Below are positions 8,121-23,989 of a stretch of 24,667 bases of DNA, in pieces. The notes beneath the pieces are model-generated. The model ran no database searches and was not told the origin of the DNA. It was given only the letters and a program-made list of their open reading frames with translations. Positions within the stretch are counted from its first letter, which is position 1. Every line of letters begins with the position of its first letter. The DNA is from a virus: positions 1 through 24,667 of IMG/VR virus record IMGVR_UViG_3300047276_000202; one strand, written 5' to 3'. The position numbers and the translations under genes were made by a program.

Positions 8121-10298
8121 ATGGGTATGAAGCTAGTCCAAACTAACTTCTCATCGGGAGAGATTGGTCCTCTGATGGATATGCGCCATGACACTGGCGC
8201 TTATCAGAATGGCGCTCGTCGGCTGCGTAATGTCTCCGTATTGAACCAGGGTGGCATTACTCGTCGCCCAGGCACAGAATATTTTGCGACTTTGAATGGT
8301 AGATCTCGCATGATCCCATTCGAGTTCTCTAACACTGAGCAGTATATCTTTGCCTTTGGTGACCAGAGGCTTGATATTTATTCAACTGCTGGCTCTCTTA
8401 TCCAGAGCCTTACTAGCTGCCCTTGGACTACGAGCATCCTATTCTCTATGACATACTCGCAAGCTGCGGATGTCATGATTGTTTGCTCACCACAAATGGC
8501 AACGCAGATTATTCGACGCACATCTGCAAATACGTTTACTAGGACTGCTTTTGCTTTCGACTCCTCAGTCAATGGCAATGAAGTTTATCAGCCATACTAT
8601 AAGTTTGCTGATGATACTGTAACGCTTAGTTGCTCAGGAACAACCGGTAGTGTCACGGTTACTTCTAGCGCGGCGCATTTTACTGCTGGCTATGTTGGTT
8701 CTCGTATTCGCTGGTTTGGAATTGAACTAGAGATTACGGGATATACAAACTCAACAACGGTAACCGCTACTGTTAAGGGTACACTTCGTGGGACTTATGA
8801 TATTGATCCCATGAAAACTACTGATGGTAATAGTGTAATTGAAGTTACTCATGTTAATCATGGGCTTTCGACTGGCACTTCTATTACTATAGAAGGTGCT
8901 AATGCTTTTGCAGGGTTAACTAAGGCGCATATCAACGGAACTTTTACAATTACAGTTCTAAACGATAACGTCTATCAGTTTACTGCTGGTGGTACGGCCA
9001 ATTCTTCCGCTGATGGCGGTGGACCAAATGTTCACTTCTATGGAAATAATATCCCAACTAGAAACTGGGATGAACCAGCATTCTCGGCTGTCAGAGGCTA
9101 TCCTGGTTGCGTGACCTTCCATGAAAGTCGCTTGTGGTTTGGTGGATCTTATTCCCAACCAGATAGTCTATGGGCTTCTAAGATTGGTCAGTTCTTCAAC
9201 TTCAACGTTGGCGAAGGATTGGATAACGAATCGATCCAAGTGTCTGTTGGTTCTGATGACATCTCATCTGTTCTGCACCTTGTATCAAACCGTCATCTTC
9301 AGATCTTCACAGCGACATCTGAGTTCTATGTTCCTCGCGTATCTCAATCTACGATTACGCCAGGTAACATTACAATTGCTCGTCAGACGCCTTATGGCTG
9401 CTCTAATGTGCCGCCAATGCCGTTTGATGGAGCGACCGTTTATCTTCAAGGAACACGAGCAGCTATTCGTGAGTTTCTGTACACAGATACAGAACAAGCA
9501 TATAGCGCACCAATGCTTACCCTATTGGCAGATCACTTGATTGATACGCCTAATGATATGGGTATTCTCTTTGGCACTGAGGATAGGCCAGAGCAATATT
9601 TGCTTGTGGTTAATAATGATGGAACAGTTGCTTGCTTCCATTCTGCTCGATCCGAAAAACTAGCTGCATGGTCGCTTTGGGAAACAGAGCATCCATCTAA
9701 TACAGCAAAGTTCGACTCACTAGTCTCTATTGGAAATAGGATGTACTTCTCTGTACTGAGGGGTTCATCTTATTATCTAGAGCGTCTAGCCAAGAATGAT
9801 CTTGATCTTACACTTGATTGTGCCAAGAGCTATACGTCTGGTTCTGCCACAAAGACTTGGACAATCAATGCTATCTACGCCAATAAGACTGTATCTGTCG
9901 TGTCGAACAACTATTACTTGGGCGATTTTGCTTGTAATGGTTCGAACCAGATTGTTCTTAATGATGAAGTTACCAGCATCACCGTTGGCTTTAACTACGA
10001 TGTCACCATCGAGAGTTTACCTGCTAACATCAATCTACCGTCTGGCAATTACTCTGGCCGTCCTAAGCGCATTGCTCGCGTTATTCTTGCGCTAAACTCA
10101 ACGCTGGCAGTCAATGTTCAGGGTAACCGTCTCATCATCCGACAAGTCACGGATGACTTCTCACTTCAACCTACAGCAGTAACCGGCAAGCGAGAGTTCT
10201 TTTTGCTTGGGTTTAACCGTGATGCCACGGTTATTATAACCCAATCAGAACCCTTGCCACTTCGACTGCTTGGTATGGCTATGGAGGTATCCATCTAA
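8121..10298 (+). CDS. Tail tubular protein B (nozzle), T7 gp12-like
   Basis: A 725-residue nozzle protein. The start KLVQTNFSSGEIGPLMDMRH and the following RNVSVLNQGGITRRPGTEYF are a clear gp12 signature; CVTFHESRLWFGGS and TPYGCSNVPPMPFDGATVYL are further family segments. T7 gp12 is 794 residues. Between about residues 165 and 305 there are two beta-rich stretches that look like inserted modules: GSVTVTSSAAHFTAGYVGSR, and then a second one starting HVNHGLSTGTSITIEGANAF and running to the 'VYQFTAGGT' strand. The second resembles a small beta module found in many phage surface proteins. ATG at 8121; MKL at 8127 is an alternative start. Overlaps the next gene as TAATG. Confidence 0.93.
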   Translation: MGMKLVQTNFSSGEIGPLMDMRHDTGAYQNGARRLRNVSVLNQGGITRRPGTEYFATLNGRSRMIPFEFSNTEQYIFAFGDQRLDIYSTAGSLIQSLTSCPWTTSILFSMTYSQAADVMIVCSPQMATQIIRRTSANTFTRTAFAFDSSVNGNEVYQPYYKFADDTVTLSCSGTTGSVTVTSSAAHFTAGYVGSRIRWFGIELEITGYTNSTTVTATVKGTLRGTYDIDPMKTTDGNSVIEVTHVNHGLSTGTSITIEGANAFAGLTKAHINGTFTITVLNDNVYQFTAGGTANSSADGGGPNVHFYGNNIPTRNWDEPAFSAVRGYPGCVTFHESRLWFGGSYSQPDSLWASKIGQFFNFNVGEGLDNESIQVSVGSDDISSVLHLVSNRHLQIFTATSEFYVPRVSQSTITPGNITIARQTPYGCSNVPPMPFDGATVYLQGTRAAIREFLYTDTEQAYSAPMLTLLADHLIDTPNDMGILFGTEDRPEQYLLVVNNDGTVACFHSARSEKLAAWSLWETEHPSNTAKFDSLVSIGNRMYFSVLRGSSYYLERLAKNDLDLTLDCAKSYTSGSATKTWTINAIYANKTVSVVSNNYYLGDFACNGSNQIVLNDEVTSITVGFNYDVTIESLPANINLPSGNYSGRPKRIARVILALNSTLAVNVQGNRLIIRQVTDDFSLQPTAVTGKREFFLLGFNRDATVIITQSEPLPLRLLGMAMEVSI

Positions 10299-10810
10299 TG
10301 TGCGTCACGGCTCTTGTCGCCTCTACTCTAGTCTCGGCTGTTGGTGGCTTTGTCCAAGCTGGTATGGCTTCGGCTGCTGCTGAATCTGAAGCTGCATTCC
10401 GAAACTATCAACTTGAAGTTCAAAACAAACAACTTGAAGAAGATCGCAAGATGGCTGAACTTCAGGCACTGCAAACTGAAAATGCAAGGCTGCTTCAAGC
10501 TCGCAAAATTCGCGCGCAGAATGAAGCCTTCATTGCTGCTTCTGGTGTTGGTGAAAGTCGCTCATTCTTGCAAGGCGCAGATGTAGCAAGTGAGCAAAAT
10601 CTTAGACAGGATGTTGCAAATTTGCGACTGACAAATGTTCAAACCACCAGCCGTATTGCTGATCAAATTGCAGTAAATAGGGCTGAGGGTGCGTTCCAAA
10701 CTGCTAAGGCAGGAATGACCGGCCAGTCCGCATATATTAATGCAGCATTCAATGCGGCATCTAGTGGTCTGAATAACTACACAAAGTATGCCTATTATAA
10801 GACGAGGTAA
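10298..10810 (+). CDS. Internal virion protein, T7 gp14-like
   Basis: A 170-residue protein with a hydrophobic N-terminal segment (VTALVASTLVSAVGGFVQAG, residues about 3-22), followed by an Ala/Glu/Gln-rich coiled coil to about residue 75 (YQLEVQNKQLEEDRKMAELQ). A Gly/Ser-rich centre contains AASGVGESRSF. This is the usual pattern of the small podovirus ejection protein that is expelled first and forms the channel in the host outer membrane (T7 gp14, 196 residues). It lies directly after the nozzle gene, sharing a TAATG overlap, and before the two giant ejection proteins, the same order as in T7. Sequence similarity to gp14 itself is likely weak, so the call rests on pattern and order. Confidence 0.85.
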   Translation: MCVTALVASTLVSAVGGFVQAGMASAAAESEAAFRNYQLEVQNKQLEEDRKMAELQALQTENARLLQARKIRAQNEAFIAASGVGESRSFLQGADVASEQNLRQDVANLRLTNVQTTSRIADQIAVNRAEGAFQTAKAGMTGQSAYINAAFNAASSGLNNYTKYAYYKTR

Positions 10811-10812
10811 CG

Positions 10813-13695
10813 ATGGCTATCGAAACTGATCCACAGCGTATTGGTGTCCAGCCATCTGGCCGCATGATTCGTGAATTTCGTACGGATCTTCCATCACCAA
10901 ATATGTCTGGTGTGCAGAAGTTTGCCGAAAGCCTCTCATCTATTGGTGAGATGGCAGCAAAGCAACAAGCAGAAGAAGATGTTAAGAGCGCATTAGCTGC
11001 TGCTCCATCTAAAGATGGCAATGGCAACTATATGGTTCCTCCTGCGCCAGAAACATTCGGTCCATTTGCTCGTCGTATGTTTGATGATGCAGTTGAGACT
11101 CGTTATAAAAATAACGTCTTTCAAGATTTCCAGACTACATTAAATCGTGTAGCTGCTGAAAATCAAAACGATCCAGATACAGCCTTTGCCCTCATGGAAG
11201 GTCATATGCGCGGAACCCTTAAAGGGATGGACCCGCGCATTGCTAAAGATCTAGAAGCCAACTTTATGCGTGAAGTTAATGAACGTCATCGTGGCGTTCT
11301 TAATCTTGCAACTTCTCGCGAGCGCGAAGCAACGGTTGGTGATCTTCGTGTTCAACGAGATAGCATGTTATCTCAAGCCCAGGATGCTCATTCTAGAGGA
11401 CTAACATCTGAAGCTGAGCGACTTGAACAAGAAGCTGCTGGTATTACTCAACGTCTTGTTGGCCTTAAAGCTGAAAGCGTTTTGAATCCTGCACAGGTTC
11501 AAGAAATTCAACGTGGCAATCGTGAAGCTGGCCGTATTCTTTCTGCTATGAATAAGGCGATTGAAGATGGCACGATTACACCAGAGCAGTTGAATTTCCT
11601 GCATCTAGCCTCCCAGGGGCTTGGGGGTGATCGAACTATCACTGTTGGTGATATGACGATTAGTGGAAACCAGGTTCTTGAGTTAATTAAAGATCCACGC
11701 ATTCGCACTGTTTTAGGTACACGCATTAAGCAGGCGACTGGAGATCTACTTCCAAACTTTGAGCGTGATAATGCTGCGGCAGCTATTAACACTATCAATA
11801 CCCTTGCTGACCGTGGTGTTCGCAGCTTTCCACTGAACACATCAGGTGAGCAGCAAACTCAAGCAATGCTAAGCTGGGTGCAGCAGCAGCGTGCAAAGGG
11901 TAATAATATTGATCCATCTACTCCAGAAGGATTTAATATTATTTTCCAACGCTATGGTGCTATTCCAAAGGATTACTATAAGAAGTTGTTTGAGGGCGTA
12001 AACACTGAAAGTGCTGAGGCCCTTGAGCGACTGAGGCCACTATATCAAGCAATGGAAAATACACTGACTAGTACAGGTCAGCGTCGATCTCTTGCTGGTG
12101 AAGTTTTGCCGCAGAGAGATGATGCCATTATGTATTGGTATTCATTGGCTCGTGGCCCTGGTGGCACTAAAGGTTATGAGCCGACTGCCGCAGCAGAATT
12201 TGCAGTTAAGGCAGTCAATCGTGGTCTTGAAAAGTTTAGAACTGATCGACCTGAAAACTTTGTTGTTCGCTCCTATCAAGAAGCTCAAGGCGACCCAAAG
12301 GCTAACAATCTAAAAGTATTCGATCAGATCAAAGGACAAGTTGGCTTTGATATTGCCAAGATGGATGATGATGCTCGACAGGCATTGATGGCATCCATTG
12401 GCTTGTTTGCTGCAACTGGCTTGCCATTCAAAGAAGCAGTTAATCGTGGTGCACTTCATTTTAATTCAAACTATGAAGTGAATAAGTTTACACTGCAATC
12501 TGGTCTGTCTGGTAAAAATGGACCCACACCAAAAGCGTTGAACCCACCAGAACTTCCAGATCAGGATGGCAATGTTAGCTATGATTATCTAAAGCCTCTA
12601 GCTAAATTTGCCATCAAAGAAATGGCTTCTACAACACAGCCTAATTTTAAAGTACCTGTTGATCAGTTGGAGCTTGGTAAGAACCTTTGGTTAAAACCAA
12701 CGGGTGCTGACTCAGCCAATCCAAGTTTTCAACTATGGTACTTTGAAAAAGGTGGGACACAAGTGCCCGTCTTAGATAACAATGGTCGCATTGTTACTAT
12801 GTACATTGGCAAGTATATCCAGGCACAATCGGCTGCATCTAATGATGCCTCTATTAATCGTGAAGTTATACGTCGCGGTGCTATTGAAGAACTAAATCGT
12901 GCAGGAGCAACAGATCCTATGACTGGGATGGTTATTACAGAACCATCGGCTGTTACTCCAAACGTAGGACAAGTAACACAACAACGCACTCCTGCGTTTA
13001 TTGAACCACGTCCTGAGCATATCATGCCACCTCCTTTAATTAGGCAAATGCTTGAGCGTCCTGTTAGCCCACTTGAACCTGATCGTGTTAATCGTGGTAG
13101 AACGCCTCGCAATCAGCCACTTGGTCAGCGTACTGGATCTCTCAGTGGAGATGCTACAGTTCAGCCAACATCATTTGGTGCTACCAGTAAAAATGTGATT
13201 GAAAGCGCATCGAACTGGCTTGGCATTAATGAGAGATCTGGGCGTCAAGCACTTGCATCCTTCTTCCAAAAGACAATCGGTGAATCGGTAGATCCGGTTC
13301 AAACAGCATGGTGCGCTGTCTTTGTAAATGCTGTGCTAAGAGAGAGTGGATATGCTGGTATTTCTGGCAATAGTTCAAAGATGGCAAGAACATTTCTTGC
13401 ATATGGTGAACGTGCCGATAAGCCGAGTGAAGGTGATATTGTTGTATTGCAACGTGGTAGCGATCAGCGCACGGGCCACGTTGGCTTTTTCATGGGATAT
13501 GAAACACGAGGTGGTCAGCAATATGTAAAGGTCCTTGGTGGCAATCAAGCCGACTCTGTGAATGTAACTACATTTCCAGTTAGCCAGATTCTTGGCATTC
13601 GCCGTCCTATGAAACTTGAGCGTATGGCTGAACTTCCAGGCTTTGAGGGAACTCTGTTCTCTCAATGGAATGATGCAATAGAGGACTATGCCTAA
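10813..13695 (+). CDS. Internal virion protein, gp15-like, with C-terminal Cys peptidase-like domain
   Basis: A 960-residue ejection protein. The first 750 or so residues are long helices rich in Ala, Glu and Gln, as in the T7 gp15 type (747 residues), which forms part of the periplasmic tube. A linker rich in Pro, Arg and Gln (about 700-790) leads to a C-terminal domain with a Cys/His/Asn set. Cys834 is in TAWCAVFVNAVLRESGY, His889 in RTGHVGFFMGYE and Asn911 in VLGGNQADSVNV. This matches CHAP/NlpC-P60-like wall hydrolases of the TIGR02594 type, which would cut peptide cross-links during DNA entry. T7 instead carries its lytic domain in gp16. Start two bases after the previous stop; overlaps the next gene. 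Confidence 0.88.
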   Translation: MAIETDPQRIGVQPSGRMIREFRTDLPSPNMSGVQKFAESLSSIGEMAAKQQAEEDVKSALAAAPSKDGNGNYMVPPAPETFGPFARRMFDDAVETRYKNNVFQDFQTTLNRVAAENQNDPDTAFALMEGHMRGTLKGMDPRIAKDLEANFMREVNERHRGVLNLATSREREATVGDLRVQRDSMLSQAQDAHSRGLTSEAERLEQEAAGITQRLVGLKAESVLNPAQVQEIQRGNREAGRILSAMNKAIEDGTITPEQLNFLHLASQGLGGDRTITVGDMTISGNQVLELIKDPRIRTVLGTRIKQATGDLLPNFERDNAAAAINTINTLADRGVRSFPLNTSGEQQTQAMLSWVQQQRAKGNNIDPSTPEGFNIIFQRYGAIPKDYYKKLFEGVNTESAEALERLRPLYQAMENTLTSTGQRRSLAGEVLPQRDDAIMYWYSLARGPGGTKGYEPTAAAEFAVKAVNRGLEKFRTDRPENFVVRSYQEAQGDPKANNLKVFDQIKGQVGFDIAKMDDDARQALMASIGLFAATGLPFKEAVNRGALHFNSNYEVNKFTLQSGLSGKNGPTPKALNPPELPDQDGNVSYDYLKPLAKFAIKEMASTTQPNFKVPVDQLELGKNLWLKPTGADSANPSFQLWYFEKGGTQVPVLDNNGRIVTMYIGKYIQAQSAASNDASINREVIRRGAIEELNRAGATDPMTGMVITEPSAVTPNVGQVTQQRTPAFIEPRPEHIMPPPLIRQMLERPVSPLEPDRVNRGRTPRNQPLGQRTGSLSGDATVQPTSFGATSKNVIESASNWLGINERSGRQALASFFQKTIGESVDPVQTAWCAVFVNAVLRESGYAGISGNSSKMARTFLAYGERADKPSEGDIVVLQRGSDQRTGHVGFFMGYETRGGQQYVKVLGGNQADSVNVTTFPVSQILGIRRPMKLERMAELPGFEGTLFSQWNDAIEDYA

Positions 13696-16600
13696 TGCCT
13701 TCATTTGATGAACTGCTCTTATCGCAACTTCAGGCTAGCCGAGATCGGGGTATAGATCCGGCAGAAGGTGCTTTTACGGGCACTCGTCCTGGCATGGCAA
13801 AGGCTGAGCCACCAAATAGTTTCTTTGCTAATGTTTATGATAACATAGCAACGCAACCCTTCTATCAGTTACTTGGTCAAGTATCTGACTCAATGTATCC
13901 GGTTGAGGAAGGATATGATCCTTTGACCAAAGAAGAGTTAAAGGGTTATGAGCAATATGCTTCTTACTTTCGTGAGTCACGAAGCCGTGCTCAAACAGAA
14001 GCAATGAAGCAGCGGCTCGACTCTCTTCAAGAAAGAAAAGATCGCTTGTTAAGCGATGGTGGTATTGGCTCCGAGATTGTTGCTGAGTTAGCTAATCCAA
14101 TTAATTACATTGGCCTGGGTGCCTTACGTAAGGGTGTTGGCTTTGCTTATGGTGCTTTGCAAGGAGCTAAAGCTGTTGCACCTTCTATTGCTGTAGAAGA
14201 AACCTTACGTTCTCAGATTGACCCTACAGCAACCAGAGAAGAGTTAGCTATCAATACAATCACCGGCCTTGCCTTTGGTGGCATTCTTGGCGGCGGTATT
14301 GGCATGATTGGTGGCATGTCAACAAGAAAGCGCATTATTGATAGTTATAATTCAACAATGACACGCATTGATGGTGATGTTCCATCTGTCAAAACGTTGG
14401 AAACAACGGAACCATCAGGTGTTAAAACAGCCTATGAAGCTACGCCAACTGAAATAGAAGCAGGTATTAAATCGGCCTTTGGCCTGGAAAAAGTTACAAG
14501 TCGCATGACCTCTTATGGCCGACTTGTAAATAAAGGTTTTGCTGCGGTTGAGGACTTTGCCAATGCATTGGCAGGGGACTTCGACTTGATGTTCAAGCGA
14601 AATGAAAAAGGCCTTCCTACAGAGGGATCTGCCTATCTACGTGCTGGTCAATGGCGTGGCTTAGCCGGTGATACCATTGGTAAGCTTGATAAGATTTACA
14701 ATGAATATCTTGGCAATGGTCCAGATCCGCTCACTATTGGAAATGTTAACATTCCAGTGACGATGCGTCGAGTTGGGCAGGCTGTTGGTATTCGTCCGTC
14801 TGATGGGTTGATGACCTATCAGGAATTTATGGAAGCAGTCTTTAAGGCTCATAAGGCAGATCGAATTGAAGCAGCCAATCCATTTGTGCAAAAGGCTGCT
14901 ACTACAGTTCGAACGTTTTTTGATCAAGCGAGAGACGCTGGCGTTGAAACTGGATTCCTTTTTTCTAAAGGTTTTCAGCCTAAAGCTGTTGCTAAATATA
15001 CAGATCGAGTTGCTGACTTTGATCGGCAAATTGCTGCACTTAACGCAAAAGTTAAGGATGGAGTTGAGCTTAGTCCAAATGAACAAGCTCAACTTACTCT
15101 TCTTAATGATGCCAAAAGTAGAGCTGAAAAGCGTTTAGCTAGAGCTAAACTCTCGCTTGAGAGAGGCGAGTTAACAGAATATGAAGGTCCAAATGGTGAG
15201 AAGTTTTATCTTCCACGCCAATGGGATATTGAAGCTATTCTAGCTGACGAAGCTGGTCCGCAAAATCTGCGTAAGATTTTGTTTGATTGGTTCAAAAACA
15301 ATCCTCCATCTACGCAAGAGCTTGAACGAGTCAGCGCTCTGATTGACGATTTGATTGAGTTCAAGACAAGACAAAACCCTAAGAAAGTTGAGCTTCTGGC
15401 TTATCTTGAAAAGCTTGGAGATGAGTGGAAGGGTCTCAGCCCAAATCAATTTGATTTGCTAACCCAGCTACGCAAAGAACTTGGTACAACACCAACCTTT
15501 ACAAATGCTCAATGGGATTTATTGAGCAAGCTCACTGCTTCTTATCGTAAAGAAAAAGGGCGACTAGAATATCTTAATAATGAAGAAAACATTTCTAAGA
15601 GAGTAGAGCAGACCATTAAAAATATTATTGGTCAGGGCTCACTTGGAGACTTTCAGATTGGCCGTCCTGGTGGTGGTTCTTTCCGTCTATCGCGTACTCT
15701 TGATATTCCAAATGAGCTTGTTGCGGACTTTGTGCAACGAGACGTTGGTGCGCTTATTCGTGGCTATGCTAGCCAAGCTGGGATTGGGATTGAGTATGCT
15801 AGAAAGTTTGGCACACGAGACGCAGAAGATGCGATTGATGATATGCTGCTGCAAGTTGCGCGTGAAGCTAAGGGATCCGTTGAAGATATTAATAAGCTTC
15901 TCCAAGAGATCCGAGACAATGCTATTGAACTGAGAGATCTGACACTCGGTGATGCATTTGCTCGTAATCCAGTATCTATGTCTCGCGATGCAGCTCAGGC
16001 GCTTACATCTTTTGCTGCTATTACTCAAATGGGTGGAGCAGTAATTACATCTTTGGCCGAACCTGCTAAGCAAGTCATGATTCATGGCGTTCAGAGAACA
16101 TTGGGTTTCGCTCTCAAGGCTATGTCTGATCCGAAAATGTTTAACCAAATTGCTGAAGAGACCCGTCGCCTTACTGGTGAGGGGATGGAAGTTGCTCTTG
16201 GCATTCATATGCAAAGACATATGGAGATGGGAGGGCTATCTGCTCCAGGCATGAATAAAGTTGGCCGAGCATTTCATAATGCCACAAGGCCCTTGGTCAA
16301 TTTTGCTCAAGGACCATATTATGTTGCGAATCTTCTTGGCCCATATACAGATATTATCAAAACTTATGCTGGCGTAATGTCATCGCATTATCTGTTAACT
16401 GACATTCAAAGAGCAGCCAAAGGTCAAGGTGGTGATAAACTCATCTCTAAATTAGCAAGCTATGGCTTGTCTTTAGATGATGTAAAAAAGATTGCTGCAC
16501 AACCTTTAGAGGTTGGACAAAATCTTAAATTTGCCAATGCCTCTAAGTGGGACGATCCAGAGCTGGCGGCTAAATTCTATATGGCGGTTGCTGGTGAGGT

Positions 16601-17219
16601 TCGACGAACAGTTGTGACTGCTGGCCCTGCCAATAAACCCAATATTACACAAGGCTTTATTGGTAAGGGAGAAAATATGCGCGAAGTAGCACTGGCGCGT
16701 ATTCCATTCCAATATATGAACTATGGACTAGCGGCTTTAAATAAGAACCTACTATCTGCCCTACAGGGCCGTGAGGCTAATGCCTTTGCTGGCGTGGCAG
16801 CCATGGTAGGCATGGGATATATGGTTGCTAGGCTCAAGTCATCAGATGCGGCTTGGGAGCAGATGCCGGAAGGTGAGAAGATCCTGCGTGCGGTTAACTT
16901 CTCTGGCGTAGCTGGCATCATTACAGATCTTCCTAACATGATTGAGAATGCTACCCGTGGAGAATATGGGGTTCGTCCAGCTCTCGGTCTACCACCCGCT
17001 TATGGCTACTCCATGTATGATGACTACTCACCATACGCTACAGCAGCCGGTCCAGGTGGCGGGAAGATCATTGATCTTTACAAACTCTTTGTCGATGACT
17101 CTATCAGCGACAAAGAACAAGCAAAAATCATCAGGCGTATGATCCCTCTAAATGATCTCTTTTATTGGAAGTCTCTGTTTAATGCCGGAGAGCGCCAACT
17201 AAGGGATCAACTATACTAA
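13695..17219 (+). CDS. Large internal virion protein, T7 gp16-like
   Basis: A 1174-residue protein, close to T7 gp16 (1318), in the correct position as the last of three ejection proteins. It would cross the host envelope and help pull in DNA. Residues about 130-210 contain hydrophobic stretches (ANPINYIGLGALRKGVGFAY; ITGLAFGGILGGGIGMIGGM) that could meet membrane. Around 430-480 there are charged coiled coils (QIAALNAKVKDGVELSPNEQ). The last third carries more hydrophobic pieces (ALTSFAAITQMGGAVITSLA; AFAGVAAMVGMGYMVARLKS) and a conserved-looking KIIRRMIPLNDLFYWK ending. I do not see a lytic transglycosylase 'ESGG..GLMQ' motif, which T7 gp16 has at its N-terminus. TAATG overlap with the previous gene. 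Confidence 0.87.
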   Translation: MPSFDELLLSQLQASRDRGIDPAEGAFTGTRPGMAKAEPPNSFFANVYDNIATQPFYQLLGQVSDSMYPVEEGYDPLTKEELKGYEQYASYFRESRSRAQTEAMKQRLDSLQERKDRLLSDGGIGSEIVAELANPINYIGLGALRKGVGFAYGALQGAKAVAPSIAVEETLRSQIDPTATREELAINTITGLAFGGILGGGIGMIGGMSTRKRIIDSYNSTMTRIDGDVPSVKTLETTEPSGVKTAYEATPTEIEAGIKSAFGLEKVTSRMTSYGRLVNKGFAAVEDFANALAGDFDLMFKRNEKGLPTEGSAYLRAGQWRGLAGDTIGKLDKIYNEYLGNGPDPLTIGNVNIPVTMRRVGQAVGIRPSDGLMTYQEFMEAVFKAHKADRIEAANPFVQKAATTVRTFFDQARDAGVETGFLFSKGFQPKAVAKYTDRVADFDRQIAALNAKVKDGVELSPNEQAQLTLLNDAKSRAEKRLARAKLSLERGELTEYEGPNGEKFYLPRQWDIEAILADEAGPQNLRKILFDWFKNNPPSTQELERVSALIDDLIEFKTRQNPKKVELLAYLEKLGDEWKGLSPNQFDLLTQLRKELGTTPTFTNAQWDLLSKLTASYRKEKGRLEYLNNEENISKRVEQTIKNIIGQGSLGDFQIGRPGGGSFRLSRTLDIPNELVADFVQRDVGALIRGYASQAGIGIEYARKFGTRDAEDAIDDMLLQVAREAKGSVEDINKLLQEIRDNAIELRDLTLGDAFARNPVSMSRDAAQALTSFAAITQMGGAVITSLAEPAKQVMIHGVQRTLGFALKAMSDPKMFNQIAEETRRLTGEGMEVALGIHMQRHMEMGGLSAPGMNKVGRAFHNATRPLVNFAQGPYYVANLLGPYTDIIKTYAGVMSSHYLLTDIQRAAKGQGGDKLISKLASYGLSLDDVKKIAAQPLEVGQNLKFANASKWDDPELAAKFYMAVAGEVRRTVVTAGPANKPNITQGFIGKGENMREVALARIPFQYMNYGLAALNKNLLSALQGREANAFAGVAAMVGMGYMVARLKSSDAAWEQMPEGEKILRAVNFSGVAGIITDLPNMIENATRGEYGVRPALGLPPAYGYSMYDDYSPYATAAGPGGGKIIDLYKLFVDDSISDKEQAKIIRRMIPLNDLFYWKSLFNAGERQLRDQLY

Positions 17220-17289: not shown

Positions 17290-20130
17290 ATGGCCATTCT
17301 AATCAACGACACCACGCCTCGCGCCCAATACACGGCGACCTCTGGTCAGACCGTGTTCTCTGTGCCGTTTGAATTCTTTGAGAATGCGGATCTCAAGGTC
17401 TATAAAAACTCCACTCTCCTGACCTTGACTACCCATTACACGGTAACTGGCGCTGGCGTAACTGGCGGTGGTTCGATTACCCTGGTGACTGGCGCAACGG
17501 CTGGCGATGTCCTGACCATTACCCGTGACATTGCGGTTAAGCGTGTCACTGACTTTCCTACGTCTGGCCCGTTCAATGTAGACGCGCTGAATACCGATCT
17601 TGATCGGCTAACTGCAATGATGCAGGAGCGCGAGAATGGCCTGACTCGCGTCGTTCAACTCTCCGAGACTGACACGGCAGCTTCTCTCCAGCTACCTGAG
17701 ACAGCCACTCGTGCCAATAAAGTTCTTGGTTTTAATGGCAGTGGCACTGCTATTGTTATGCAAGAAATTGGTAACTTTAAAGGCAATTGGGCCGCATCTA
17801 CTGCTTATGTCTTGCGCGACATTATTAAAGATACAAGCAACAGCAATATTTATATTTGCATTGTTGCTCACACATCGAGCGGTTCTCAACCAATCTCAAG
17901 CAATGCCGATTCTGCTAAGTGGGCGTTGATTGTTGATGCTTCTGCTGCTGCTACTTCAGCCAGCAATGCAGCAACTAGCGAAACTAATGCTGCTGCCTCG
18001 GCAATTCTGGCTAATGATTGGGCCACTAAGACAAGTAGTCCTGTAGCTGGTGGAGAATACAGCGCCAAGTATCATGCACAAGCTGCGGCAACATCTGCGT
18101 CTAACGCATCTACGTCCGCGACGAACGCAGCTTCATCTGCATCAACTGCCTCTACTCAGGCAACTAATGCTTCTAATTCTGCATCGTCTGCATCTACTAG
18201 TGCGACTAATGCGGCTAATTCAGCTACAGCGGCGTCTGCTTCTGCGGCTGCTGCGGCTGCTGCGGCTGCATCAGGATTGTATCGTCAGGTTTTAGACAAG
18301 ACTGCAAACTACACTATTGTTGCAGCAGACCAAGGTACACTGTTCCGCGCCAATACTGGTAGTGGAGCAATTACTTTTACGCTTCCAGCAATCTCAACTG
18401 TTTCTGATGGCTTTAAGGTATCTATTGTTAAATGGACATCTGATGCTAATACGGTTGATATTAATCGCGCTGGCTCAGATACAATTAACGGTGGAACAAC
18501 AACTCAAATTACTTCGCAATATGCGCAAGTAATTCTTGTTGCTGACTTTGAAAGCAACACTTGGTTTGCATCTCAATCTGGTTTGGGTGCAACCAATATG
18601 AATATTGATTTGTTTAGTGGTAATGGCAGTACAACTGCTTTTACACTAACGGCTGATCCTAGCACGGAAAACAATGTCAATATCTTCATTAGTGGCGTGC
18701 AACAAGCGCACTCTACTTATTCTATTGCTGGGACTACACTAACCTTTAGCACTGCTCCTCCATCTGGTAGCAGCAATATTGAAGTAATTTATGGTACGCC
18801 ATTGGCTATTGGAACGCCGAGTGATGGTACTGTAAGTGCTTCAAAAATTGCTGCTGGTGCTGTTGATCTTACGACAAAGGTTACTGGAGTTCTGCCAGCA
18901 GTAAATGGCGGTACTGGTCTTTCTTCTCCAGGAACATCAGGTAATGTTCTCACATCTAATGGAACAAATTGGGTAAGCTCTGCTCCCAATTCAATTCCAA
19001 CTGGAACTATCCTTTCTTATGGATCGTCTACACCACCTAGCGGTTATCTTGCTTGTGATGGCAGCACCTACACAAAGTCGTCTTACACGGCACTTTCAAC
19101 GGTGCTTGGCAACGTGATGAGCAATACCTTTACACGGACTTATACAAGTACAACTCCGCGATTGGCTGTTGTTGCTAATTCGCGTATTTTTCTCCTAATA
19201 GGCGATGGTACTGCCGGATCTGTTTCTTCAGATTCTGGTATTACATGGTCATCAACTGGGTCTGGCATTAGCCATAGCGTTGCATGGAATGGGACGCGAT
19301 ACGTTTCAAGCAATATGTATTATAACGGTTGCACGTGGGCTGTAGGCTTGTGGTACAGCACAACTGGAACATCTTGGACTGGAACAACAACTAATGTGAA
19401 TTATGCAGTCATTGGTCCTGTTTGGACTGGTTCCCGTTTTATTGTAACTCAGTTTGATGCAACAAGTGCTCCATCTTCATATAGTACAGATGGAGTTACA
19501 TGGACCGCAGGTGGAACCTTAACAAACATCAGGCCAGTAGATATTGCTTATGGCAATAGTATTGTTGTTTGTGTAGGAACTGGCACGGCCAAGATTGCAA
19601 CAACAACAGATGGATCAACTTGGACAAGCAGGACGGCTCCCGCTGGTCTGCAAACTCCACGTGGTGTTTCTTATGTGAACAATCAATTTGTGATTGTTGA
19701 TAGCAGTGGAAACTTGGCAACAAGTACTGACGGTATTACTTGGACGTTAACTTATACCCAAACATCAACGTCTGCACTTGCCCCATATTTTGCCTATTAT
19801 CCAAATATAAGTGGAACTTATATTCCTCAACGAGTTGCCTATAATTCTACAGATGGCCGGTATTACTATGGGTCTTGTTATAGCACAAATCTAACAAGCT
19901 GGTTCACTGTCCCATATTCATCAGTTTATGGTGCTTACCAACCAGACGGTGGCTATGCATTGGCGTCTTATATAGGACGTATGTTTAACTGTGCATCGGA
20001 TGGGACGCGTCTCTACAACCCATATGGCGCAGTTTACAACCCATACCCATACACAACTGCCACGCAGTTCATTGTGCCAAACTTGTCTAGCCAGACAAGC
20101 GGCGGCACTTACTACTACATCAAGACTTAA
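17290..20130 (+). CDS. Main tail fibre: T7 anchor, coiled stalk, collar domain interrupted by Asp-box repeats
   Basis: A 946-residue receptor-binding fibre. Residues 1-150 are the T7 gp17 N-terminal domain that fixes the fibre to the tail (YTATSGQTVFSVPFEFFENA; TRDIAVKRVTDFPTSGPFNV). About 160-215 looks like a carbohydrate-binding type 5/12 module (FKGNWAASTAYVLRDI). About 216-325 is an Ala/Ser/Asn/Thr heptad stalk ending in nine Ala. Beta modules follow, then a stalk repeat at 546-563. A tail-collar domain opens at 569 (IPTGTILSYG, GYLACDGSTY). It is interrupted by Asp-box-like repeats near 648, 691, 733, 773 and 813 (such as YSTDGVTWT, TSTDGITWT). At about 925 the collar ends with TQFIVPNL, then GGTYYYIKT. 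The repeats suggest a beta-propeller that binds or cuts a surface glycan. Confidence 0.9.
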   Translation: MAILINDTTPRAQYTATSGQTVFSVPFEFFENADLKVYKNSTLLTLTTHYTVTGAGVTGGGSITLVTGATAGDVLTITRDIAVKRVTDFPTSGPFNVDALNTDLDRLTAMMQERENGLTRVVQLSETDTAASLQLPETATRANKVLGFNGSGTAIVMQEIGNFKGNWAASTAYVLRDIIKDTSNSNIYICIVAHTSSGSQPISSNADSAKWALIVDASAAATSASNAATSETNAAASAILANDWATKTSSPVAGGEYSAKYHAQAAATSASNASTSATNAASSASTASTQATNASNSASSASTSATNAANSATAASASAAAAAAAAASGLYRQVLDKTANYTIVAADQGTLFRANTGSGAITFTLPAISTVSDGFKVSIVKWTSDANTVDINRAGSDTINGGTTTQITSQYAQVILVADFESNTWFASQSGLGATNMNIDLFSGNGSTTAFTLTADPSTENNVNIFISGVQQAHSTYSIAGTTLTFSTAPPSGSSNIEVIYGTPLAIGTPSDGTVSASKIAAGAVDLTTKVTGVLPAVNGGTGLSSPGTSGNVLTSNGTNWVSSAPNSIPTGTILSYGSSTPPSGYLACDGSTYTKSSYTALSTVLGNVMSNTFTRTYTSTTPRLAVVANSRIFLLIGDGTAGSVSSDSGITWSSTGSGISHSVAWNGTRYVSSNMYYNGCTWAVGLWYSTTGTSWTGTTTNVNYAVIGPVWTGSRFIVTQFDATSAPSSYSTDGVTWTAGGTLTNIRPVDIAYGNSIVVCVGTGTAKIATTTDGSTWTSRTAPAGLQTPRGVSYVNNQFVIVDSSGNLATSTDGITWTLTYTQTSTSALAPYFAYYPNISGTYIPQRVAYNSTDGRYYYGSCYSTNLTSWFTVPYSSVYGAYQPDGGYALASYIGRMFNCASDGTRLYNPYGAVYNPYPYTTATQFIVPNLSSQTSGGTYYYIKT
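18244..18269 (+). repeat. 9-base tandem repeat in fibre stalk
   Basis: GCGGCTGCT is repeated nearly three times and codes for the poly-Ala end of the fibre stalk. The 9-base unit equals three codons, so slippage would change stalk length without changing frame. Confidence 0.8.
18928..18978 (+). repeat. Stalk repeat, copy 1 (in main fibre)
   Basis: Codes for PGTSGNVLTSNGTNWVS directly before the collar domain. The 51 bases match 20432-20482 at 37 positions, with most differences at third codon positions. It marks the left end of the duplicated receptor-binding unit. Confidence 0.75.
20053..20069 (+). repeat. Collar-end repeat, copy 1
   Basis: ACAACTGCCACGCAGTT, coding for TTATQF at the end of the main fibre's collar domain, matches 21665-21681 at 16 of 17 bases. 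This is much closer than the Asp-box region between the paired stalk and collar-end repeats. Confidence 0.75.
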
Positions 20131-20392: not shown

Positions 20393-21763
20393 ATGGCTCT
20401 CACCAAAGTTCCCCTCTCGCTGCTTGATAGTCCAGGTACATCTGGCAACGTATTAACATCTGATGGTACAAGTTGGGTGTCTCAAACTCCAGCTACTCCT
20501 GCTGGCGTTCCAACTGGCGGCATTATTTATTGGCCCTCAACTACGCCTCCATCTGGCTATCTTAAATGTGATGGGTCTATCTACAATCGCTCTTCTTATT
20601 CTTCACTTGCATCTGTAGTTGGCACTCCCATGCTGCCATCAAGTGAAACGCTTCGTAATTCTGGTCTTGCGATTGGAAGTGGTCTTGGCTACCCAAATTA
20701 CATAACATCAGTTAATGGTGTTATCTTTACCTCTGGCTCTGCTGGACTTACTACAAGTTCTGTAGCCAACGGATTCCGCACATCTACTGATGGGATCACA
20801 TTTACATCGCGTACTGGCGCTGGAATTTATACATTCCAAGGAACTGTTGCCTATTTTGCATCTACATATGTCACGCTTGTAAGTTATGGCGCGACTAATA
20901 GTGCAACATCAAACTTTCAAACTAGCACTGACCTAGCAACGTGGACGCAGCGTACATTTACGGCTGCAACATTGTCTGGCGGTCAACTTGCTCTTGCTGG
21001 AAATCAGACTTGGGGTCGTGGCATTATGCACAATGGCACGACAGGCTGGGATGGCTGCGGATACGTTATTAGTAATCCGTATACATGGTACTATTCAACC
21101 AATGCAACAACATGGACTGCTGCTGCATCGCCGCCTACAAATACACAAGGCTTCAGCGCTCACCACGTTGTCGCTGGAACAGCAAGTGCTTTAGCACTTT
21201 ATGGTGCTTCAGGTACAGGCTTTGCTCTATGGTACACGGCTGATGGTTCTACTTATACCAACGTAACATCAAACATCACATCATCGTTCCCAAATGTCAC
21301 GACAGTCTACAAGGTGTTTTGGACTGGCACATACTTCTATCTGCTATGCAATTCAAACATCGTGCTGCGAAGCACTACTGGAGCAAGTGGAACGTGGTCC
21401 CAAGCAACTAATATGCTTGGTATTGGAAACGGTGGAACTAATACATTTAGCTCCATGTCTAGTGATTCATACATATATAGTACAGATGGTACATATCACA
21501 TCATGAGTGCTGGCACTGGCGCTTTTTGGTATTCATCAGATTTGGTGAATTGGTCATATATTAGTGGGCGTAGTGGTTTTTACGCTGCGGTTACTGGCTC
21601 AACATTTGTAGGCAGAACTGCTAGTGGACCAATAAGCACATACACAATGACTGGAACCGGATATACAACTGCAACGCAGTTTCCAGTACCTAATCTAAAT
21701 CTAGCCTCTGCAAATCCTGGTGGAACATTTGCTCCTCCACCAGTCGCATACATCAAAACATAA
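20393..21763 (+). CDS. Second receptor-binding protein: collar domain interrupted by Asp-box repeats
   Basis: A 456-residue protein with the same design as the C-terminal half of the main fibre, but with no T7 anchor. The short start MALTKVPLSLLD is followed by the stalk repeat PGTSGNVLTSDGTSWVS (residues 14-30). The opening of a collar domain follows (VPTGGIIYWPSTTPPSGYLK, CDGSIYNRSSY). From about residue 130 to 385 there are Asp-box-like turns such as TSTDGITFTS, TSTDLATWTQ, YSTNATTWTA, YTADGSTYTN and YSSDLVNWSY, 45-55 residues apart, suggesting propeller blades. The collar resumes at the very end with TTATQFPVPNL and YIKT. It could be a second fibre, a tip protein or a soluble adhesin. How it attaches to the tail is not visible. 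Confidence 0.8.
   Translation: MALTKVPLSLLDSPGTSGNVLTSDGTSWVSQTPATPAGVPTGGIIYWPSTTPPSGYLKCDGSIYNRSSYSSLASVVGTPMLPSSETLRNSGLAIGSGLGYPNYITSVNGVIFTSGSAGLTTSSVANGFRTSTDGITFTSRTGAGIYTFQGTVAYFASTYVTLVSYGATNSATSNFQTSTDLATWTQRTFTAATLSGGQLALAGNQTWGRGIMHNGTTGWDGCGYVISNPYTWYYSTNATTWTAAASPPTNTQGFSAHHVVAGTASALALYGASGTGFALWYTADGSTYTNVTSNITSSFPNVTTVYKVFWTGTYFYLLCNSNIVLRSTTGASGTWSQATNMLGIGNGGTNTFSSMSSDSYIYSTDGTYHIMSAGTGAFWYSSDLVNWSYISGRSGFYAAVTGSTFVGRTASGPISTYTMTGTGYTTATQFPVPNLNLASANPGGTFAPPPVAYIKT
20432..20482 (+). repeat. Stalk repeat, copy 2 (in second receptor-binding protein)
   Basis: Codes for PGTSGNVLTSDGTSWVS at residues 14-30 of the second protein. It pairs with 18928-18978 (37 of 51 bases equal). 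Confidence 0.75.
21665..21681 (+). repeat. Collar-end repeat, copy 2
   Basis: ACAACTGCAACGCAGTT, coding for TTATQF near the end of the second receptor-binding protein. It differs from 20053-20069 at one base. Confidence 0.75.
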
Positions 21764-22952: not shown

Positions 22953-23477
22953 ATGGATTTTAGTAAACTTGGTGGGCTGATCTCATCGGTTGCACCTACA
23001 CTAGCAACTGCTATTGGCGGTCCTTTGGCTGGCCTTGCAGTCAAGACTGTCTCAAATGTTTTGCTTGGCCGACCCGATGGATCTCAAGAAGAACTTGAGA
23101 AGGCTATCCAGACGGCTACGCCTGAGCAGATCTTGCAGCTTAAGAAAACAGATGCCGACTTCCGCATTCGCATGAAGGAACTCGACATTGATCTTGAGAA
23201 GATTGCTGCCCAGGACAGGAGCGAAGCCCGTCAAAAAGAAACTACAACCCGCGATTGGACGCCGCGAATCCTGGCTTTCATTGTGGTTGGTGGCTTCTTT
23301 GGTTGCTTGGCTTGGATGCTGCTGCGCGGAATGCCGCAGTCAGGAACCGAAGCCATTCTCATGATGCTCGGTGCCCTGACAAATACTGTCACCGCTGTCA
23401 TCGCCTACTACTTTGGATCTAGTGCCGGTCGCGAGAAGGGATCTGGCACAGGGTCTGGTCAACTGGGAGTTAAGTAA
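22953..23477 (+). CDS. Phage 3TM-type holin
   Basis: A 174-residue membrane protein. The start MDFSKLGGLISSVAPTLATA, then GGPLAGLAVKTVSNVLLG, is the familiar beginning of the 3TM holin family (Holin_3TMs, GTA-type). Next come LKKTDADFRIRMKELDIDLE and the DRSEAR motif (family norm DR.SAR), and then two membrane segments (ILAFIVVGGFFGCLAWMLL; ILMMLGALTNTVTAVIAYYF) with a Gly/Ser-rich tail. The start at 22953 is preceded by AGGGAGG at 22941-22947; an earlier in-frame ATG at 22914 lies inside the upstream gene and was rejected. It overlaps the endolysin start as TAATG, the usual holin-endolysin pairing. Confidence 0.85.
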   Translation: MDFSKLGGLISSVAPTLATAIGGPLAGLAVKTVSNVLLGRPDGSQEELEKAIQTATPEQILQLKKTDADFRIRMKELDIDLEKIAAQDRSEARQKETTTRDWTPRILAFIVVGGFFGCLAWMLLRGMPQSGTEAILMMLGALTNTVTAVIAYYFGSSAGREKGSGTGSGQLGVK

Positions 23478-23989
23478 TGCGCGAGAACTTTGAAGCTAGC
23501 TTTAAGCATCTACTTAAACATGAGGGCGGCTTTGTAAATCATCCTCGTGATCCAGGTGGCATGACAAATCTTGGCGTAACCAAGCGAGCCTGGGAAGAGT
23601 ATGTCGGCCATGAGGTCGATGAGGCTGAGATGCGTAGCCTTACCCCTGAGAAGGTGGCCCCATTCTACAAGGCTCGGTACTGGGACAAGGTTAAGGGCGA
23701 TGATCTACCTGGTGGGGTAGACCATGCCATCTTTGACTATGCTGTGAACAGTGGCGTAGGACGCGCAGCAAAGGCTCTACAGGCCGCTGCTGGCGTCACG
23801 GTAGATGGTGCCATCGGACCCAAGACTCTTGCTGCTGTGGCTTCTAAAGACCCTGAGGATATGGTCGATGCTATCTGCGATGGTCGCATGGCTTTTCTAC
23901 GTAGCCTGAATACCTTCGATACCTTTGGTAAGGGTTGGACTCGTCGAGTTACCGAGGTTGAGGATCAAGCTAGAGACTTCATGGCTTAA
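23477..23989 (+). CDS. Endolysin, GH108 N-acetylmuramidase
   Basis: A 170-residue cell wall hydrolase that cuts the glycan strand of peptidoglycan. The N-terminal GH108 domain has the hallmark HEGGFVNHPRDPGGMTNLGV, with Glu16 as catalytic residue, then VTKRAWEEYVG and FYKARYWDKVKGDDLPGGVD. The C-terminal half is the PG_binding_3 domain: FDYAVNSGVGRAAKALQAAA followed by VDGAIGPKTLAAV. There is no signal peptide or SAR segment at the N-terminus, so export needs the holin encoded just upstream. The length (170) is normal for the family. The start overlaps the holin stop as TAATG. Confidence 0.93.
   Translation: MRENFEASFKHLLKHEGGFVNHPRDPGGMTNLGVTKRAWEEYVGHEVDEAEMRSLTPEKVAPFYKARYWDKVKGDDLPGGVDHAIFDYAVNSGVGRAAKALQAAAGVTVDGAIGPKTLAAVASKDPEDMVDAICDGRMAFLRSLNTFDTFGKGWTRRVTEVEDQARDFMA

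Follow-up and report, generated by a model that had tools for sequence, protein, structure and literature searches.

A CHAP-NlpC/P60-type domain on a gp15-like ejection protein, in a C-terminal slot that related phages fill with other putative wall-cutting enzymes

The locus described here raises the question of which virion protein of a podovirus-type phage carries the enzyme that opens the bacterial cell wall for DNA entry, and what kind of enzyme it is. The window, meaning the whole stretch of DNA analysed, is the 24,667-base IMG/VR virus record IMGVR_UViG_3300047276_000202, which may be a fragment. It encodes a gp15-like ejection protein (P0002) followed by a gp16-like ejection protein (P0001). 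The original prediction, made from the sequence alone, was that a peptidase-like wall-cutting domain had moved from the gp16-like to the gp15-like protein. Our analysis indicates that the C-terminal ~150 residues of P0002 are probably a cysteine-type CHAP-NlpC/P60 peptidoglycan hydrolase, tethered to a tube scaffold, acting at entry, and located in an exchangeable slot.

The interval 13195-13692 corresponds to residues 795-960 of open reading frame 10813-13695. As predicted, its product contains Cys834, His889 and Asn911 within the last 160 residues, and Cys834 is the sole cysteine of the protein. Profile searches bore out the proposed CHAP/NlpC-P60, TIGR02594-type assignment of the region around residues 790-960: TIGR02594 matches residues 795-930 with 82.4 bits (curated cut-off 70.55), Pfam CHAP matches residues 830-911 with 29.6 bits (cut-off 26; E 9.9e-7), and PHROG_1259 matches residues 785-936 (E 4e-28), so that the domain is well beyond chance. 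The Cys, His and Asn are kept in 17/17 CHAP-type rows of alignment A7, which stem from four distinct gp15-like proteins and from 13 of 21 further CHAP-type loci; the other nine rows are scaffold pieces without the domain. Searches of PDB sequences with P0002, P0001 and the CHAP domain, alone or as an alignment, gave no significant match.

An AlphaFold2 model of P0002 (mean predicted local distance difference test score, pLDDT, 76.6) has a helical part (residues ~40-700), a disordered linker (699-791) and, beginning at 795, an alpha/beta domain. In this model, Cys834 is among the first residues of helix 833-844, His889 is in strand 888-899, and Asn911 directly follows strand 902-910. The nearest folds of the domain found with VIA-align are CwlO (Z 11.8; root-mean-square deviation 3.5 with 121 residues aligned), a Thermus thermophilus enzyme (Z 11.4), MepS (Z 10.6), and LytE (Z 10.4), followed by weaker matches to the CHAP domain of LysGH15 (Z 8.3) and to the amidase effector Tae1 (Z 7.8). 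The description as peptidase-like is thus correct, and the nearest fold is that of the NlpC/P60 endopeptidases, although families outside the fold tables may also resemble the domain. Based on profiles and model, the domain is very likely a peptidase or an amidase. Peptide cross-links are its likely target, although its fold neighbours, which span D,L-endopeptidases and MepS, also include Tae1.

P0002 is called gp15-like because of its gene order and a weak resemblance in fold; sequence similarity to T7 gp15 plays no part in this assignment. Its gene sits between a gp14-like gene, itself weakly matched (PHROG_418, internal virion protein, E 0.016, in addition to the Pfam match in the table below), and the gp16-like gene. 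Among 350,542 chains compared with Foldseek, the mature T7 core chain 9jyy_G, whose 671 residues fit gp15, ranks first for P0002 (E 0.014), and fourth place goes to 6yt5 chain A, from the T7 gp15-gp16 complex; no match has E <0.001. VIA fold comparison likewise returned the T7 tunnel structures 7k5c (Z 7.0) and 6ysz (Z 6.2) and the PhiM1 chain 8vb2_E (Z 6.4).

Whole P0002 as a single-protein query found no relative among viral contigs. The scaffold part alone found 26 contigs (19, then 7 more), making 27 with the window. A profile from 19 scaffold proteins, window included, matches all 19, the same proteins from which it was built, over about residues 1-615. In 21 of the 27 contigs the gp15-like protein is complete and has a recognisable C-terminal domain, which belongs to one of four classes: CHAP/NlpC (n=6: the window, L008, L009, L011, L012, and L089), M15_3-type (n=4: L013, L095, L141, and L142), VanY-type M15 (n=5: L097, L098, L101, L135, and L137), and SLT-like (n=6: L096, L099, L100, L102, L104, and L149). 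Because L009, L012, and L089 are identical in protein, as are L141 and L142, the 21 complete cases represent 18 different proteins. Five more are incomplete: L090, L092, L103, and L105 stop before the C-terminus, and the frame of the rearranged L148 ends at 598 residues.

Scores above curated cut-offs were obtained for CHAP in P0002 and L009, TIGR02594 in P0002, L008, L009, and L011, M15_3 in L013, VanY in L098 and L101, and SLT in L096, L099, and L102. Other members fall just below, namely L095 (M15_3, 22.9 versus 23.2), L008 (CHAP, 24.7 versus 26), and L100 and L104 (SLT, 19.6 and 19.9 versus 21.3), and L011 has no Pfam CHAP match at E 0.05. L097, L135, L137, L141, L142, and L149, which were outside the Pfam scan, were found in a 23-protein set by slot-class profiles (E <=1.2e-35). 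These profiles were built only from members above a cut-off, and the four show no cross-match at E 0.01. Searches against PDB matched the VanY-type domain of L098 to a D,D-dipeptidase/carboxypeptidase (E 6.4e-6) and, weakly, the M15_3-type domain of L013 to a muramoyl-pentapeptide carboxypeptidase (E 0.039) and the SLT-like domain of L102 to a lytic transglycosidase (best E 0.21). The M15-type and SLT-like domains keep intact their motifs, which have catalytic roles. To judge from substitution rates, the C-terminal domains are under purifying selection: of 14 pairs, nine have a finite dS, and in these omega (dN/dS) is 0.05-0.25, for any class, including two CHAP-class pairs (0.09 and 0.14) and the pair L013/L095, which has a dS of 2.6. 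The other five pairs are uninformative (two identical, three saturated), and the window's own pairs are saturated.

We compared slot content with midpoint-rooted trees of the 620-residue scaffold (window, 18 relatives, and Hodr) and of the gp16-like protein (window, Hodr, and 16 relatives, of which some are truncated at contig ends). In both, the CHAP, VanY, and SLT classes each form a well-supported clade. Among the M15_3-type members, L013 and L095 group together; L141 has no settled position in the scaffold tree, and the gp16 tree places it with these two (94/95), under a long-branch warning. The simplest reading of these sequence trees is that slot content would have changed at least three times on a vertically inherited scaffold. 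The presence of four known wall-cutter families in one slot, with the classes as clades (L141 apart), indicates that the function of wall cutting is kept and not the fold, and on this sequence evidence we read the slot as a putative exchangeable wall-opening cassette. More tentatively, and with the odds somewhat against it, this podovirus lineage might swap wall-opening enzymes of differing fold and bond specificity in a plug-in slot, matched to host wall chemistry, with the slot helping to set host range.

Several further features were observed in these relatives. In all five SLT-class proteins scanned (L096, L099, L100, L102, and L104), a GDSL-like lipase match lies between scaffold and SLT-like domain, at residues ~676-783, with 21.8-23.6 bits (below the cut-off of 32.9); it may perhaps represent a second wall-modifying activity. 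In L136 (L136:8203-8988), the remaining one of the 27 contigs, the scaffold gene stops at an in-frame TAG after 734 residues; downstream and in the same frame, a separate 250-residue reading frame ahead of the gp16-like gene encodes a VanY domain (family profile, E 5e-28). This arrangement reflects either a split gene, readthrough, or a sequencing error. In L148 (L148:1187-4921), a contig that is rearranged or misassembled, the frame of the gp15-like protein continues into tail genes that are inverted.

The gp16-like protein had been described as lacking a visible transglycosylase, in contrast to T7 gp16, which carries one at its N-terminus, and both statements held. An hmmscan of P0001 against Pfam found no SLT at E 0.1; the SLT of T7 gp16, a positive control run in another search tool (the record search), scores 108.1 bits. 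Pfam SLT was likewise detected in 0/37 scanned gp16-like proteins (30 of alignment A4 at E 0.01 and 7 more at E 0.05), and four further scans, two of them of proteins also in A4, found none; these scans covered gp16-like proteins other than those of L097, L135, L137, L141, and L149. A record search with PF01464 gave no match in the window; this absence is weak because the same search missed the window's CHAP and the SLT-like domain of L102, and we rely on the hmmscan. A local SLT-like profile with filters off returned T7 gp16 at E 0.13 and P0001 at E 0.97, both at noise level, so this profile cannot discriminate T7's own domain.

P0001 does have a C-terminal hub of the T7 gp16 type by profile: PHROG_342 matches it with E 2.3e-48 (best stretch 656-1170), and residues 96-177 align with T7 gp16 297-382 (E 9.9e-5, probability 58), an offset of 201. 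In fold comparison, P0001 from residue 268 matches PhiM1 8vb2_A from 551 (Z 8.8, 298 aligned) and from residue 271 matches T7 9jyy_I from 515 (Z 8.4, 289 aligned; offset 244), and 9vvp_W also matches (Z 6.7). These three are the longest alignments of the table (281-298 residues); two unrelated chains outscore them (Z 9.0-9.3), but over 102-112 residues. The P0001 model is poor (pLDDT 60), and Foldseek found nothing for it with E <0.38. In T7 gp16, the transglycosylase occupies residues 1-156 and a "molecular tape" residues 157-228 (PMC8954989). Taken together, the sequence and fold offsets indicate that P0001 is without a counterpart of the first ~200 residues of T7 gp16.

The gp16-like proteins of the close relatives L008, L009, and L011 are 158-322 residues longer than that of the window. 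ART-PolyVal (ADP-ribosyltransferase) matches 4/30 gp16-like proteins of A4 (best E 2.6e-4); in L009 (L009:6748-11238; extra residues ~560-870), the match covers residues 571-627 with 20.1 bits, below the cut-off of 31.2, and this insert has no significant match among PDB sequences. It is possible that the phages with this match eject a putative ADP-ribosyltransferase that P0001 lacks.

Among more distant kin, the gp15-like proteins vary in what they carry. That of L063 has a lysozyme-like C-terminus (E 9.7e-18 for PHROG_31077; sub-threshold in Pfam, with 19.0 bits), that of L081 has a glucosaminidase at residues 239-365, and that of Mwe-JY08 has a transglycosylase match, while in Hodr neither Pfam nor PHROGs detects a wall-cutter. 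The gp15-like protein of EC.W1-9 (L003:7785-8225) has an endolysin-type domain, recognised through PHROGs and PDB matches where Pfam found nothing; L018 has one likewise by PHROGs. The EC.W1-9 domain matches residues 3-131 of the 1295-residue Gp29 in PDB entry 9vvp (bacteriophage E1004 core proteins; E 3.9e-36) and the endolysin 7q47 (E 1.2e-16). By sequence match, one endolysin-type enzyme family thus occurs on two different core proteins, one of which is gp15-like; from its length, we read Gp29 as a gp16-like protein. Our literature search found no paper on phage E1004.

In the mechanism we propose, P0002 would be packaged in the virion, and its ~90-residue flexible linker would tie the hydrolase domain to the helical, tube-forming scaffold. 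Upon ejection of the head contents, we infer that the gp15-like scaffold forms a tube in the periplasm. The domain on its tether would cleave nearby stem peptides or cross-links at entry, allowing the tube to pass the wall; glycan cutting at lysis would be left to the separate GH108 endolysin. The job of the T7 gp16 transglycosylase would here fall to a peptidase, held by a long tether at the tube protein's end and present in as many copies as the tube protein itself. The gp15 tunnel of T7 has wings formed by the transglycosylase part of gp16 (PMC8954989), and PhiM1 has eight copies of the octameric ejection protein versus four of the gp16 counterpart (PMC11440229).

Several observations weigh against this reading. 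The hydrolase activity of the P0002 domain is a prediction from sequence and model. Comparison by hhalign of P0002 with T7 gp15 gave a probability of 2.1 (E 0.023), with no detectable sequence similarity, and with phiKMV gp36 a probability of 1.0; the helical fold matches, at Z 6-7, are in a range that unrelated helical proteins can reach by chance. Pfam can miss hydrolases, as it did in the EC.W1-9 gp15-like protein, and P0001 may therefore hide a lysozyme fold. Since the record may be a fragment, another entry enzyme may lie elsewhere in the genome. Finally, Pfam or TIGR02594 detects a wall-cutting domain in only 8/29 gp15-like proteins of alignment A3, with some further ones having a wall-cutter by PHROGs only, and as judged by these profiles not all distant kin possess the cassette.

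A true relocation, as the word "moved" implied, would mean that an ancestral wall-cutter on the gp16-like protein, as in T7, was transferred to the gp15-like protein in this lineage. The strong SLT of T7 gp16, the offset of P0001 by 201 or 244 residues, as if a part were missing, and the presence of an endolysin-type family both on the EC.W1-9 gp15-like protein and on Gp29 are compatible with such an event. However, the CHAP/NlpC fold is not that of the T7 transglycosylase, so there is no sign of transfer of that domain; relatives fill the slot with other enzymes, including SLT-like ones; CHAP-type kin outside ejection proteins are short proteins (19/21 loci) or tape-measure-like (2/21); and, given that 0/37 gp16-like proteins show a Pfam SLT, the lineage may never have had it. 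We consider relocation improbable, and this part of the original prediction is not supported in the form in which it was put.

The domain could also lack catalysis and serve to bind the wall or as a structural module, or it could be a virion-maturation protease, and RipD, a non-catalytic NlpC/P60 protein, is indeed among its fold matches (Z 9.3). Conservation of the Cys, His, and Asn in every CHAP-type row, and the M15-type or SLT-like domains with intact motifs that kin hold in the same position, make this unlikely. A role in lysis at the end of infection would accord with TIGR02594-type relatives that are short phage proteins, several with leader-like N-termini as judged by eye, but the fusion of the CHAP domain to a putative ejection scaffold in six contigs and the phage's own GH108 endolysin make it very unlikely. 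A tethered hydrolase acting at entry remains the reading that we prefer for P0002.

Features of the window, with coordinates in the 24,667-base record
Feature	Coordinates	Strand	Evidence or remark
gp14-like internal virion protein, 170 aa (P0004)	10298..10810	+	Pfam T7_gp14 match weak and sub-threshold (E 0.0029); directly 5' of the gp15-like gene
gp15-like ejection protein with C-terminal putative wall-cutting domain, 960 aa (P0002)	10813..13695	+	gene order, model, fold matches
Scaffold part of P0002, residues 1-620	10813..12672	+	common to 26 viral contigs, wholly or partly, whatever their C-terminal domain
Predicted disordered linker, residues 699-791	12907..13185	+	pLDDT <50 in 699-727 and 739-791
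TIGR02594 / CHAP-NlpC/P60 domain, residues 795-930	13195..13602	+	curated profiles, PHROG_1259, NlpC/P60 fold match
Cys834 codon, predicted nucleophile, WCA motif	13312..13314	+	sequence, alignment
His889 codon, predicted base, GHVGF motif	13477..13479	+	sequence, alignment
Asn911 codon, predicted third polar residue, GGN motif	13543..13545	+	sequence, alignment
gp16-like ejection protein (P0001), 1174 aa, no transglycosylase detected	13695..17219	+	PHROG_342, T7 gp16 alignment, fold matches
GH108 endolysin with peptidoglycan-binding domain, 170 aa (P0012)	23477..23989	+	Pfam Glyco_hydro_108 E 5.8e-28, PG_binding_3 E 8.7e-12

The gene order of the window is of podovirus type: terminase, capsid, tail tube, tail protein, the gp14-, gp15-, and gp16-like genes, two collar-domain tail proteins, and the endolysin P0012, which likely serves lysis, separate from the ejection apparatus. 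The tail genes 17290-20130 and 20393-21763 adjoin and both have a Collar domain, each after a similar SPGTSGNVLTS stretch, as if this module had been duplicated. A DNA search in phages gave no match, and a scan of genome contigs found four distant prophages, in Providencia, Serratia, and Pantoea.

Comparison with known systems separates what P0002 shares with other phages from what is particular to it. T7 gp16 has the same proposed job, opening the wall for the ejection tube, but the enzyme is on another protein, has another fold, and cuts another bond, and no SLT is detected in P0001. SP6 gp36 and phiKMV gp36 are listed as lysozymes (PMC5380687), and K1E and K1-5 have a wall-cutter on the protein in the gp15 position (PMC8954989), which in K1-5 is named gp35 in one paper and gp38 in the other (PMC8954989, PMC5380687). 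Like P0002, these phages (phiKMV gp36, SP6 gp36, and K1E/K1-5 gp35) carry the wall-cutter on the middle ejection protein and not on gp16, and the phiKMV record places the enzyme domain at the C-terminus, as in P0002. However, theirs are listed as lysozymes, which cut glycan, whereas P0002 by profile and predicted fold is of CHAP/NlpC type and would cut a peptide or amide bond. PhiM1 gp49, an octameric ejection protein, has a lysozyme-like domain at residues 718-903 (PMC11440229); the location resembles that in P0002, with a weak scaffold fold match (the 8vb2_E match above), but the gp16 counterpart of PhiM1 bears an endolysin-like domain as well, and Pfam detects none in P0001.

The TIGR02594 family itself is found on other virion proteins (PHROG_1259), where both carrier and tail type differ: in long-tailed phages it occurs in baseplate hubs and tape measures. 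Among 40 listed of 447 records from isolated phages, it is present on Klebsiella phage hubs annotated as tail lysozyme (34.8% identity) and on Caulobacter phage tape measures (36.3%); the tape measure of contig L122 also bears it, and it has been reported for type VI secretion system effectors (PMC13055248, PMC13340143). CwlO, LytE, and MepS have the same predicted fold (Z 10.4-11.8) but are cellular enzymes with 19-20% identity.

Our literature search, which covered few subscription journals and took in papers as passages, turned up no gp15-like ejection protein described with a CHAP/NlpC or M15 domain. Of the original proposal that the wall-cutter is on the gp15-like instead of the gp16-like protein, the peptidase-type domain is indeed there, while the general idea was already published (PMC8954989, PMC11440229, PMC5380687): a wall-cutter on a gp15-like protein is known from K1E/K1-5, SP6, phiKMV, and PhiM1. 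What is new is a single gp15-like scaffold with four wall-cutter classes in the same C-terminal slot. For the ejection tube, this suggests a need for a wall cutter of some kind without a requirement for a given bond or fold, and the scaffold family offers natural domain swaps with which to ask whether enzyme type follows host wall chemistry.

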